The position numbers were made by a program, and so were the translations under genes. The notes below the pieces were generated by a model, which saw only the letters and a list, made by a program, of their open reading frames with translations, had not been told where the DNA came from and made no database searches. A stretch of 64,000 nucleotides of DNA from Paraburkholderia nodosa (GTDB lineage: Bacteria; Pseudomonadota; Gammaproteobacteria; Burkholderiales; Burkholderiaceae), in NCBI RefSeq assembly GCF_001718195.1, contig NZ_MCNV01000010.1, forward strand, positions 186,001 to 250,000, read 5' to 3'. Shown here one piece after another: positions 59,329-64,000 of this stretch. Numbering within the stretch: the stretch's first letter is position 1; each line of letters opens with the position of its first letter.

Positions 59329-59751
59329 TCAGGAGGCGTGCGTGCGCGGACCGTGGTCGAATTCGAGCCTGATCCCGCCCGGTTCGTACACCATGGTATG
59401 GCGTTTCGGCCCCGGACCGAGGTTTTCCGGCGCAAATTCGATGTTCACGCCGGGCCAGTCGGACACGCGCGAAAAGATATCGTCGAGCGCTTCTTCGCTG
59501 CCTACGCGCAAGGCAAGATGATGCAGGCCCACATGGGTCTTGCGGTCGAACTCGACCAGGCGGCTTGGGTCGGTGACTTGCCAGAGGGTCAACATGACGT
59601 GACCGTCCGAAACGAACGCCGCTGGATAACTGGGTCTTTCGCCAACCTGTTTCCAACCCAGGCAATTCACGAAGAAGTCACGCGTGAGATTCAGGTCGCG
59701 CACAGTCAGTCCGACGTGATCGATGCCCAGCGTAAGCGGTTTGTCAGTCAT
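59329..59751 (-). CDS. VOC-family (glyoxalase/dioxygenase-like) protein
   Basis: 140 residues with the paired beta-alpha-beta-beta-beta layout. LGIDHVGLTVRDLNLTRDFF starts the first module with metal ligand His12. KTHVGLHHLALRVGSEEALD begins the second module, and the last ligand Glu lies in GGIRLEFDHG. Divergent from marR at 60010, so a shared control region is likely. Function within the family cannot be fixed. Confidence 0.85.
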   Translation of the reverse strand: MTDKPLTLGIDHVGLTVRDLNLTRDFFVNCLGWKQVGERPSYPAAFVSDGHVMLTLWQVTDPSRLVEFDRKTHVGLHHLALRVGSEEALDDIFSRVSDWPGVNIEFAPENLGPGPKRHTMVYEPGGIRLEFDHGPRTHAS

Positions 59752-59952
59752 GTTTCGATTCTCCTGAATAAAGAGTGCGCCGATCTCGCGTTCCGCACTT
59801 CACGGATCAAAACTCTGCCGAAACAATATAGCTGTGAAGTTCGGCGTCGATTATCGCTTGCCGGTCACATCACTTTTTACACCGTGTATCGCGTCGCGCA
59901 GAGGGCGGTTGGGCGAGGCGCCGGCCCGTCTCATGCGGCTTCGGAAACTTTC

Positions 59953-59981
59953 TTGCACACATCTGCAATGTCAGATATAGT
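59953..59981 (+). promoter_or_regulatory. marR promoter with MarR-type operator, site 1
   Basis: TTGCAC (-35) and TATAGT (-10) are separated by exactly 17 bp. The spacer is almost filled by ATCTGCAATGTCAGAT (59961-59976), inverted arms ATCTG/CAGAT. Binding here would block RNA polymerase, fitting autorepression of the MarR gene. Confidence 0.6.
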
Positions 59982-60009
59982 CCGGATCAGATATCCAGGA
60001 GGGCAATCG

Positions 60010-60447
60010 ATGAACGATCCCGTCAATGAAGATTTCGAGCGCACGCAGAAGCTGGCGTTTGTGCTCGGTCAGGCGCACCACTTGATGGCCACCGAACTCA
60101 GGGCAGGGCTGAAGGACGCCGGGCTGAACCTGCAGGAGCGCGGCATTCTGCTGACGCTGGCCGGTGGGAGCGCGAAGACGCCGGCGGCGCTGGCAAAGCT
60201 GCTTGGCGTCCACCCCGCCCGGATGACCCGCGTGCTGGACAAGCTCGAAACCAGCGGGCTCGTGGAGCGCGCGCGCAACGGCACGGATCGGCGCCTCGTG
60301 GACGTTTCGTTGACGCGGGAGGGCAGCGTGGTCGCGGCGCGAAATACAGACGTCGCGCCTGGCGCCTGGAGCGAGCGGCTCTCGCACTTCTCGAAGTCCG
60401 ACTTCGACGCGTTGAGCACGCTGCTGTTCAGATTGCTTCATGGCTAG
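60010..60447 (+). CDS. MarR-family regulator 1
   Basis: 145 residues with a MarR winged HTH: TPAALAKLLGVHPARMTRVL, wing about RARNGTDRRLVDVSLTREG. ATG 60010 follows AGGAGGG at 7 bp; an in-frame upstream ATG inside the operator is unlikely to be used. Paralogous to the MarR at 62204, with the same length and a shared LLG...MTRxLDKLET segment. Probably represses itself and the emrB-type gene 89 bp downstream. Confidence 0.88.
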   Translation: MNDPVNEDFERTQKLAFVLGQAHHLMATELRAGLKDAGLNLQERGILLTLAGGSAKTPAALAKLLGVHPARMTRVLDKLETSGLVERARNGTDRRLVDVSLTREGSVVAARNTDVAPGAWSERLSHFSKSDFDALSTLLFRLLHG

Positions 60448-60460
60448 GACGGCATTTTTT

Positions 60461-60489
60461 TTGCCCAATTATCAGACATGTCAGATAAC
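60461..60489 (+). promoter_or_regulatory. emrB control region with operator, site 2
   Basis: ATCAGACATGTCAGAT (60471-60486) matches the ATCTG-N6-CAGAT pattern with one change. It lies between TTGCCC and GATAAC, a weak promoter with a 17-bp spacer, 50 bp before the transporter start. Confidence 0.45.
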
Positions 60490-60535
60490 GGCCCGTGGTT
60501 GACGGGACATTCGCATCCAGACGAGAGAACCTAAC

Positions 60536-62098
60536 ATGAATTCTTCGACCAACCCAGGCGGGCCGCCCCAGCTGACTGGCGCGAAGTTCGCACTGGGCAC
60601 CTTCGCCGTGGCGCTCGCCACCTTCATGAACGTGCTGGATTCGTCGATCGCCAACGTTGCGATTCCCACGCTCTCCGGTAACCTCGGTGTGTCGATCGAC
60701 GAAGGGACATGGGTCATCACGCTGTTCGCCGCGGCCAATGCGGTGTCCATTCCGTTGACCGGGTGGCTGACGCAGCGCGTGGGCCAGGTCAAGCTGTTCG
60801 TCTGGGCGATCCTGCTGTTCGTGCTTTCGTCGGCAGCGTGCGGCATGGCCCCGAACCTGCTGACACTGCTGGTCGCCCGTATCGTTCAGGGCGCCGTGGC
60901 GGGGCCACTTGTGCCATTGTCGCAAGCCTTGCTGCTCGCTTCCTTCCCCAAGGAAAAGAGTTCGAACGCGCTGGCGCTGTGGGCGATGACCGCAACCGTT
61001 GGACCCATCGCGGGCCCGGCGCTCGGCGGCTGGATTACCGACAGCTACAGCTGGTCGTGGATCTTCTATATCAACGTACCGGTCGGCCTCTTTGCCGCCG
61101 GCGTGGTATGGGCAATCTATCGCGACCGCGAGACGCCGGCACGCAAACTGCCCATCGACAAGGTCGGGCTGATCTCGCTTATCGCGTGGGTCGCGCCGCT
61201 GCAGATCATGCTCGACAAGGGCAAGGACCTCGACTGGTTCAGCTCGCCGGTCATCTGGGTGCTCACGATCGTCGCCGCGGTCGGCTTCGTGTTCTTCCTG
61301 ATCTGGGAATTGACAGAGGAAAAACCGATCGTCAACCTGCGGCTGTTCGCCAAACGCAACTTCCTCGGCGGCACGATTGCGATTTCGGTCGCGTATGCGA
61401 TCTTCTTTGCAAACCTCGTGATCCTGCCGCAGTGGATTCAGGGCTTTCTCGGCTACCGCGCGGTGGATGCGGGGCTCGTTACCGCGCCGCTGGGGATTTT
61501 CGCGGTGATTCTGGCCCCCGTGATGGGCAAGGTCATGCCGCGCTCCGATTTGCGGGTGCTAGCCACCCTGGCGTTCGTGGGCTTCGCCGCCGTGTTCTTC
61601 ATGCGCTCGAACTACACGACCGGCGTGGATGCGTGGACGCTGATTCTGCCGACGCTGCAGCAAGGCGTTCCCACGGCGCTGTTCTTCACGCCGCTCACCG
61701 GCATCATCCTCTCGGGTCTGCGGCCCGACGAGATTCCGGCGGCCGCGGGTCTGTCCAACTTCGCGCGCATTTTCGCCGGCGCCGTGGGTACGTCGCTGAT
61801 GAGCAACGCCTGGAACGACCGCACGATCCTCCACCACGCCCGGCTCGCCGAGCAGACGAGCGTCGAGAATCCCGCGTTCACCGGCGCGATTGCGCACCTG
61901 CAGGCGACGCTGGGCGGCGGCGTTCCCAAGGCCACGGCCTTCTACGAAAGCTCGCTCAACGCGCAAGCCACCATGCTGGGGTTGAACGACATCTTCTGGA
62001 TATCGGCGGTGATCTTCGTCGTCATCATCCCGCTGATCTGGGTGACGAGGCCGGTCAAGGGCGGTGGCGCGGGCGCGGCAGCCGCTGGCGGACACTGA
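60536..62098 (+). CDS. emrB: EmrB-type MFS efflux transporter (DHA2)
   Basis: 520 residues with about 14 membrane helices. The N-terminus contains FMNVLDSSIANVAIPTLSG, the signature of EmrB pumps that work with a membrane-fusion protein and an outer-membrane channel. GWITDSYSWSWIFYINVPVG and the C-terminal Gly/Ala tail fit. The channel NodT is encoded at 62698; no EmrA-like adaptor is seen inside the window, so it may lie to the right. Likely expels hydrophobic drugs or uncouplers. Confidence 0.9.
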   Translation: MNSSTNPGGPPQLTGAKFALGTFAVALATFMNVLDSSIANVAIPTLSGNLGVSIDEGTWVITLFAAANAVSIPLTGWLTQRVGQVKLFVWAILLFVLSSAACGMAPNLLTLLVARIVQGAVAGPLVPLSQALLLASFPKEKSSNALALWAMTATVGPIAGPALGGWITDSYSWSWIFYINVPVGLFAAGVVWAIYRDRETPARKLPIDKVGLISLIAWVAPLQIMLDKGKDLDWFSSPVIWVLTIVAAVGFVFFLIWELTEEKPIVNLRLFAKRNFLGGTIAISVAYAIFFANLVILPQWIQGFLGYRAVDAGLVTAPLGIFAVILAPVMGKVMPRSDLRVLATLAFVGFAAVFFMRSNYTTGVDAWTLILPTLQQGVPTALFFTPLTGIILSGLRPDEIPAAAGLSNFARIFAGAVGTSLMSNAWNDRTILHHARLAEQTSVENPAFTGAIAHLQATLGGGVPKATAFYESSLNAQATMLGLNDIFWISAVIFVVIIPLIWVTRPVKGGGAGAAAAGGH

Positions 62099-62149
62099 AT
62101 TCTGCAGTTGAACCCGGTCCGGAGGGCCGACGAGTCTCGCGTGTTTTTC

Positions 62150-62178
62150 TTGACAGTATCTGATAATGCAGATATTGT
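62150..62178 (+). promoter_or_regulatory. second marR promoter with operator, site 3
   Basis: A perfect -35 TTGACA and a -10 TATTGT flank a 17-bp spacer holding ATCTGATAATGCAGAT (62158-62173, arms TATCTG/CAGATA). Same architecture as site 1, so both MarR genes probably share control logic. Confidence 0.65.
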
Positions 62179-62203
62179 GCCGTTCAACACGGAGGATGTC
62201 GCG

Positions 62204-62641
62204 ATGGACCACTACACGACGAGAAATTTCATGCTTACGGAAAGTGTCGGTTTCAGGATCGTCAAGGCGCGCAATCTGATCGTCGCTGAGATGGATTCCG
62301 CGCTCAAGGACCTCGACATCACGGGCCAGCAAATGGGCATTCTGCTTTCGCTGAAGCAGGGTATGGCGACCACGCCGTTCGAACTGTCGAAGCTGCTCGG
62401 CATCGATACGGGCCTCATGACGCGGATGCTGGACAAGCTGGAAACCAAGGGATTGCTGGAGCGTTCGCGCGACGCAGACGACCGTCGTGTGGTCAATCTG
62501 AACCTCACGCCAAAGGGACTGGAAACGGCAGCGCAGATTCCGGAAGTCGCGCCGCAAGTGTTGAACGCACGCCTGCGCAAATTCACCAAGGCGGAGTTCG
62601 CCGAACTGAACCGCCTGCTTCGCAAGTTCACAGACGACTGA
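62204..62641 (+). CDS. MarR-family regulator 2
   Basis: 145 residues, paralogue of the MarR at 60010. HTH region TPFELSKLLGIDTGLMTRML, wing RSRDADDRRVVNLNLTPKG. A GGAGG site precedes the ATG. It sits between the EmrB-type pump and the NodT lipoprotein and likely co-regulates them with MarR 1. Whether the two form heterodimers or sense different ligands is unknown. Confidence 0.88.
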   Translation: MDHYTTRNFMLTESVGFRIVKARNLIVAEMDSALKDLDITGQQMGILLSLKQGMATTPFELSKLLGIDTGLMTRMLDKLETKGLLERSRDADDRRVVNLNLTPKGLETAAQIPEVAPQVLNARLRKFTKAEFAELNRLLRKFTDD

Positions 62642-62646
62642 ACGGT

Positions 62647-62671
62647 GCGGCCGTGGCGCCGCGCTTTTTTT
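62647..62671 (+). terminator. terminator between marR2 and nodT
   Basis: GCGGC-CGTGGC-GCCGC stem followed by GC and seven T. It would separate marR2 from the outer-membrane gene or act as an attenuator. Confidence 0.6.
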
Positions 62672-62680
62672 CGACCATTA

Positions 62681-62696
62681 ATCTGATATGTCAGAA
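62681..62696. promoter_or_regulatory. operator site 4, abutting the nodT start codon
   Basis: ATCTGATATGTCAGAA matches ATCTG-N6-CAGAT except for the last base and ends one base before the ATG at 62698, where a ribosome site should be. Confidence 0.5.
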
Positions 62697-62697
62697 A

Positions 62698-64000
62698 ATG
62701 AAATCTCAGACTTCTAAAGCAAGCATCGGTACCCATACGCTGAAGCTGGGCGTATCGGCGATCGCAATGGCCACGCTGGCGGCTTGCGCCAACTACGCGG
62801 GCATCCACAGCGACAAGCAGATGCCCCAGCCGCAACAGTTCGAGACGGCGCAGAGCCTGCCGCAGGAGCAGGGGCACTGGCCGTCCGCCGATTGGGTCGA
62901 CCAGTTCGGCGACGCGCAGCTCAAGGCGCTGATTGCCGAAGCGCTGCAGGGTAGCCCGAGCGTCGAGCAGGCCAAGGCACGGGTGGCCCAGGCACAGGCC
63001 TATAGCGAAACCGCGAAAGCGGGCACGCTGCCGCGCGTGGACGCCAGCTACACGCTCACGCGTCAGCAGTACAGCAGCACGGCGCTGATTCCGCCGCCGT
63101 ATGCCGGCTCGTGGCAGACCGAAAACAAGGGGCTGCTTACCGCATCCTACGATCTCGATCTGTGGGGCAAGAACCGCGAGGCACTGCGCGCAGCCGTTTC
63201 GGAGACGGCCGCGAGCGAGGCCGACGAGGAAGTGGTCAAGCTGACGCTGGATACCTCGATCGCACGCACCTACAACCAGCTGGCGCGGCTCTACGCGCTG
63301 CGCGACATCGCGCAGGAAGAAGTCACGCGCCGCGAGCAGATCGACCGCATCACGGCGGGCCGCATTGCCACGGGTCTCGACACGCAGGTGGAACGCAAGA
63401 CCGCGCAGGCGAACCTGGCGACGAGCCGTTCTCGCGTGAGCGCGCTCGACGGCAGCATTCTCACGACGCGCTACCAGCTGGCCGCGCTGCTGGGCAAGGG
63501 CCCCGACCGCGGACTCGCGATCACGCGGCCGACGCTCGGCGTGGGCGACGAGGTGCGTTTGCCGGACAACCTGCCCGCCGACCTCGTGAGCCGGCGCCCG
63601 GACATCGTCGCGGCCCGCTGGCGCGTGGACGCGATCACGCACGAGGTCAAGGAGGCGAAGGCCGAGTTCTATCCGGACATCAACCTGAGCGCCGCGCTCG
63701 GTCTGGACGCCTTCGGCTTCGGCCGCTTCCTGACCGCCGCGAGCCGCACGGCGTCGGTTGGCCCCGCGGTCCATCTGCCGATCTTCGACGGCGGCGAACT
63801 GCGTGCGCAGTTGAAGGGCCGCTACGCCGAGTTCGACTACGCCGTGGCCGCTTACGACCAGACGCTCATTGGCGCGCTCAGCGGCGTGGCCACGCAGCTC
63901 GCGCAGATCCATTCGAGCGACGCACAGCTCGTCGATGCCGAAACCGCGCAGCAGGCGGCACGCGACGCCGATCAGCTCGCGCTTACGCAATACAAGGGCG
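62698..64000 (+). CDS. NodT-family outer-membrane efflux lipoprotein (runs off right edge)
   Basis: 434 residues are visible of an expected 490-500. The lipoprotein signal ends at lipobox LAAC (Cys30). The body has TolC-like coiled-coil repeats, including LTASYDLDLWGKNREALRAA, GLDTQVERKTAQANLATSRS and SRRPDIVAARWRVDAITHEV, typical of NodT/OprM. It would form the outer-membrane exit duct for the EmrB-type pump. No Shine-Dalgarno is visible: the space is taken by operator site 4. A 9-codon frame (ATG 62688) overlaps the start. Confidence 0.88.
   Translation, partial: MKSQTSKASIGTHTLKLGVSAIAMATLAACANYAGIHSDKQMPQPQQFETAQSLPQEQGHWPSADWVDQFGDAQLKALIAEALQGSPSVEQAKARVAQAQAYSETAKAGTLPRVDASYTLTRQQYSSTALIPPPYAGSWQTENKGLLTASYDLDLWGKNREALRAAVSETAASEADEEVVKLTLDTSIARTYNQLARLYALRDIAQEEVTRREQIDRITAGRIATGLDTQVERKTAQANLATSRSRVSALDGSILTTRYQLAALLGKGPDRGLAITRPTLGVGDEVRLPDNLPADLVSRRPDIVAARWRVDAITHEVKEAKAEFYPDINLSAALGLDAFGFGRFLTAASRTASVGPAVHLPIFDGGELRAQLKGRYAEFDYAVAAYDQTLIGALSGVATQLAQIHSSDAQLVDAETAQQAARDADQLALTQYKG

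Follow-up and report, generated by a model that had tools for sequence, protein, structure and literature searches.

A conserved MarR-EmrB-NodT efflux cluster of Paraburkholderia nodosa with two classes of one predicted 16-bp operator

We analysed a 64-kb stretch of the 8.6-Mb genome of Paraburkholderia nodosa (GCF_001718195.1, NZ_MCNV01000010.1, positions 186,001-250,000), which is referred to here as the window. It holds a gene cluster in the order marR1-emrB-marR2-nodT, and the emrA gene follows next, outside the window. The features of the cluster are listed in Table 1. EmrB scored 467 bits with TIGR00711 (cutoff 230), and NodT scored 390 bits with TIGR01845 (cutoff 210), so that an outer-membrane factor is present in the cluster. 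The EmrA-like (HlyD/EmrA) adaptor reached 444 bits with PRK15136 (cutoff 563) and 378 bits with TIGR00998 (cutoff 390.8). Both MarR proteins were above the Pfam MarR and MarR_2 cutoffs and their genes adjoin the pump genes. Neither scored as an equivalog of E. coli MprA/EmrR; the two proteins reached 25.1 and 41.7 bits with NF008122, against a cutoff of 157. A divergent glyoxalase-family gene (59329-59751) lies upstream of marR1; it was also seen in many close relatives, and not in the deeper ones.

Table 1. Features of the marR1-emrB-marR2-nodT cluster, in window coordinates.
Feature	Position	Strand	Basis or details
P1, sigma-70-like promoter of marR1	59953..59981	+	TTGCAC-17-TATAGT or TGCACA-16-TATAGT (9/12)
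Putative operator O1, regulator class, one TGCA half	59961..59976	+	ATCTGCAATGTCAGAT
marR1, MarR-family regulator, 145 aa	60010..60447	+	Pfam MarR/MarR_2, tree, dN/dS
T8 tract preceding O2	60455..60462	+	read from sequence
Putative operator O2, pump class	60471..60486	+	ATCAGACATGTCAGAT
emrB, DHA2-family MFS efflux permease, 520 aa	60536..62098	+	TIGR00711
Sigma-70 promoter of marR2	62150..62178	+	TTGACA-17-TATTGT, 10/12
Putative operator O3, regulator class	62158..62173	+	ATCTGATAATGCAGAT; reverse complement ATCTGCATTATCAGAT = O1 form
marR2, MarR-family regulator, 145 aa	62204..62641	+	Pfam MarR/MarR_2
Terminator-like hairpin and T7 tract, marR2/nodT gap	62644..62671	+	dG -14.3 kcal/mol, z -0.9 only
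Putative operator O4, pump class, ends 1 bp 5' of nodT ATG	62681..62696	+	ATCTGATATGTCAGAA
nodT-type outer-membrane efflux lipoprotein	62698..64000, continues beyond window	+	TIGR01845; 507 aa in L004

The initial annotation of this DNA had described the same inverted repeat, ATCTG-N6-CAGAT, at four sites, each before a gene. The four positions were correct. However, when matches were counted over the 10 fixed bases, the repeat was exact only at 59961 and 62158, and had one mismatch at 60471 and 62681. The gap from the end of the operator to the ATG was 33 bp for marR1, 49 bp for emrB, 30 bp for marR2 and 1 bp for nodT.

We considered whether these repeats are chance palindromes. The bare 10-base pattern is indeed not rare, as it occurs at 17 places in the genome. 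However, the window contained seven sites at up to one mismatch, four of which fell within 2.74 kb, while first-order Markov sequences had 1.2 of them in 64 kb, and no 2.75-kb stretch held more than two; the Poisson probability of at least four sites so clustered is therefore about 3e-7. We also built an operator model (R1) in which 53 distinct sites were used, all from other species; the window and its near relatives were left out. At E<=10 a whole-genome search with R1, in which 150 of 1301 first-look candidates were scored, returned cluster sites only (O1, O3 and O4). O2 was not found in that search at this threshold; within the window it scored 10.7 bits, and the best unrelated place 6.4 bits. 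On account of the cluster probability, the specificity of R1 and the conservation of the sites in other genera (see below), chance palindromes were rejected, and we regard their probability as negligible.

Four of the 15 exact copies outside the cluster were inspected; three were inside long open reading frames and one was intergenic (C1:521872), with no MarR neighbour. A genome-wide regulon was rejected as far as tested. The motif was also absent from three further emrB loci of the same genome (L005, L006 and L007; C2, C16 and C46), two of which have marR neighbours. The emrB copies at these loci were 71, 57 and 49% identical; these are separate efflux systems without the cluster operator. 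A literature search gave nothing specific to the operator or to the cluster.

To follow the cluster in relatives, we compared 40 congener loci, which occur in several gene orders. Of the main ones, order A is marR1-emrB-marR2-nodT-emrA and order B is the same without marR1; order C has two tandem marR genes followed by nodT-emrA-emrB, and order D is marR2-nodT-emrA-emrB. Nearly all 40 loci had a site with 8-10 of the 10 fixed bases before marR, emrB and nodT. The exceptions were the emrB site of L106 and the marR2 site of L104 (7/10 each), and L087, where both marR genes were without a convincing site. Most of the loci checked in other genera of the family showed the arrangement; five of 16 short loci were without a site at >=9 matches. 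The predicted operator family is conserved across the Burkholderiaceae. We also observed that the whole marR1-emrB-marR2-nodT-emrA cluster was doubled in two genomes (L077/L078 in G040, and L081/L082 in G068).

Several loci were without an intact marR1. In L093 and L095 we found marR1 remnants with internal deletions, and among L094 and L098-L105 those with the emrB-first order had no marR1 gene. P1 was conserved in 15 loci, and it was retained as a 'ghost' in nine loci that lack marR1. In nine of the 10 marR1-less loci O1 and its promoter were still seen 156-223 bp upstream of emrB; they were decaying in L095. A recent insertion of marR1 between two old operators is disfavoured by the scars in L093 and L095, although deeper branches may differ.

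The two MarR proteins had been taken as paralogues of equal length, and this was borne out: both have 145 residues and they are 42% identical. Relatives of MarR2 were found at E<=1e-40 in 82 of 299 family genomes. MarR1 of the window's lineage formed its own clade in the tree, on a long branch of 1.08 changes per site, and the named loci with the nearest marR1 were all Paraburkholderia (P. nodosa, P. guartelaensis, P. heleia, P. hiiakae and P. monticola). The dN/dS values were 0.11-0.20 for marR1 and 0.08-0.17 for marR2, and both genes (marR1 where present) are under purifying selection. Judged from these sequences, MarR1 is a diverged, lineage-restricted and dispensable paralogue that was deleted several times. 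Neither protein contains cysteine, which sets them apart from the DUF24 group of redox/quinone sensors.

MarR1 and MarR2 have in common the MTR..LDKLE recognition core and the DRR wing. Their identity was 52% in the winged helix and 26-36% in the dimer/ligand parts, but the former value is weak evidence of shared operators because the winged helix is the best conserved part of most MarR pairs. The recognition helix starts with HPAR in MarR1 of the window's lineage, and with aspartate in other groups. The long branch and this altered start mean that MarR1 may read something else. Having diverged towards a different DNA site or function, it could be a mere target of MarR2, with a promoter that inherited the MarR2 operator; the repeated loss of marR1, and the relatives that manage with MarR2 alone, also fit with such a role. 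However, marR1 is under purifying selection, its close orthologues were located within the cluster at the loci that we read, and it has retained the MTR core and the wing. We therefore consider that MarR1 as a mere target is unlikely, though it keeps some weight. Since the single-MarR2 gene orders B and D keep the operators, MarR2 is the economical reader, and it is likely to be the core operator reader. It is plausible that MarR1 reads the same operators as MarR2.

We further examined the claim that all four sites share one operator code. One family does precede marR1, emrB, marR2 and nodT, but the sites are not equivalent and fall into two classes. The form CTGC..TCAG, which is asymmetric, was present at 13/15 marR1 sites and at 9/9 ghosts, and 27/32 marR2 sites had CTGA..GCAG, which is the marR1 form reversed, whereas 32/34 emrB sites and 35/36 nodT sites had the symmetric CTGA..TCAG; these are counts over related sequences and not independent events. 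The operators of the tandem regulators in gene order C were symmetric. This difference between the putative marR and pump operators is new here.

One could suppose that the asymmetric operators are read by MarR1:MarR2 heterodimers, as the marR1 and marR2 operators have one TGCA half each, in opposite orientation. However, an asymmetric operator was also present before marR2 in 5/6 single-MarR loci of order D, so MarR1 is not needed. The single-MarR loci contradict heterodimers as the cause of the asymmetry, and this explanation is very improbable.

The operator had also been said to fill the 17-bp spacer between the -35 and -10 boxes of both marR genes. We confirmed this at 59953-59981 and at 62150-62178, and these two promoters were the only promoter-like matches within 59800-62900. 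The marR2 promoter had a hexamer match of at least 9/12 in 29/32 loci. Downstream of O1 (59976-60000) we observed an additional TCAGAT, about 17 nt 3' of the O1 half-site (GGATCAGATATC), which may be an additional half-site; most of the marR1 promoters, and most ghosts, retained a TCAG at about that spacing.

The cluster is a variant of EmrR/EmrCAB autoregulation. In EmrR-EmrCAB of Chromobacterium violaceum and Stenotrophomonas maltophilia, and in EmrR(MprA)-EmrAB of E. coli, a MarR-family repressor controls a DHA2 MFS pump (PMC6249546). In systems of this type the repressor is released by a ligand, for example salicylate. The present cluster likewise has a MarR-family regulator and a DHA2 MFS pump, with an outer-membrane protein as in EmrCAB (PMC6249546); its adaptor is clearly EmrA-like, though below the curated cutoffs. 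Unlike in EmrCAB and EmrAB, emrB is separated from nodT-emrA, and a second MarR is interleaved.

Our preferred reading, to which we give a probability of roughly 70%, is an autoregulated EmrCAB-type regulon in which MarR2 would repress itself and the pump, with MarR1 as an optional extra that probably co-binds. MarR2 would bind the 16-bp operator family, whose conservation is described above, at its own promoter and at every pump unit. In the promoters of the marR genes the 16-bp element fills the -35/-10 spacer, so that a bound repressor would exclude RNA polymerase and limit its own synthesis. The emrB and nodT operators, which are symmetric and lie right before the gene, would presumably be bound more tightly. 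The pump genes would open once a ligand, probably some small aromatic or hydrophobic molecule, frees MarR. MarR1, encoded between P1 and the emrB operator, would be under the same control; it probably binds the same sites, and is perhaps tuned to another ligand.

The two classes also differed in their surroundings. Sigma-70-like hexamers (>=9/12) overlapped 40/47 marR sites and 3/9 ghosts, as against 1/70 pump sites, in a consensus scan that unusual promoters escape. A T run of at least six was found upstream of 67/70 pump sites (34/34 for emrB), as against 2/56 regulator and ghost sites. These contrasts suggest a refinement, in which the marR sites are promoter operators and the pump sites (T7-8, about 8 nt, operator, gene) are repressor roadblocks inside the operon. 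RNA polymerase coming from P1 or its ghost (for emrB), or from the marR2 promoter (for nodT-emrA), would be halted at the T tract by MarR, and would go on to transcribe the pump genes once the ligand has freed MarR. The persistence of the ghost P1 before emrB after the loss of marR1 agrees with this, as the ghost would then serve as the promoter of emrB, which would explain its retention.

The nodT gene bears on the same point. Its operator ended one base 5' of the ATG in nearly all nodT loci. Codon 4 was glutamine throughout (MxxQ) although both CAG and CAA were used, and the ATG is therefore likely to be the true start. As the operator abuts this ATG, there is no room for a promoter that straddles it, and a -10 box beyond the operator would start within the gene. 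About half of the loci had AGGT at -10 to -7, in the middle of the nodT operator, and it is possible that this doubles as a Shine-Dalgarno sequence. The window's lineage has lost AGGT, and nodT there is without a visible ribosome-binding site.

On the other side, the consensus scan could have overlooked promoters at the pump sites, and the emrB sites could themselves be promoters in another register (TTGCCC-17-GATAAC). The T tracts of the pump sites were conserved, but the hairpins before them were overall not clearly better than shuffles; a conventional intrinsic terminator before each pump gene was rejected on these grounds. Between marR2 and nodT the hairpin was also less conserved than the T tract. 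We thus hold it as a tentative proposal, with the odds somewhat against it, that one 16-bp operator works in two modes, as a promoter block at the repressor genes and as a T-tract roadblock gate at the pump genes.

There is some precedent for both the pairing and the roadblock. GbsR and OpcR of Bacillus subtilis are close MarR-type repressors that act on a shared opuB, one by blocking the promoter and the other, GbsR, by an inferred roadblock (PMC7396694); LacI roadblocks have been analysed as well (PMC4132739). As with GbsR and OpcR, our cluster has two related MarRs with a probable shared target. However, each of those two has its own operator, whereas one operator family occurs at all sites of our cluster and the suspected modes follow the operator class. 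B. subtilis YodB and CatR, according to a reference cited in PMC10458429, are paralogous repressors of catE of the MarR/DUF24 type. As for the initial view that interleaved duplicate MarRs are unusual, it is uncommon for two related MarR repressors to act on one target, yet these two systems provide precedents.

Together, these comparisons have led us to conclude that the predicted regulon is real, conserved and local, and that what deserves testing is the distinct layout of the operators at the pump genes. The approximately 40 natural variants, in which the second repressor is present, absent or decaying in several gene orders, form a set in which it can be studied how a duplicated repressor joins and leaves a regulon. 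With the two operator classes one can test directly if a MarR protein gates elongation besides initiation. If the two-mode reading is true, one repressor pool would set its own level and also gate the read-through into the pump, and if MarR does gate elongation, the derepression models of such pumps would change.
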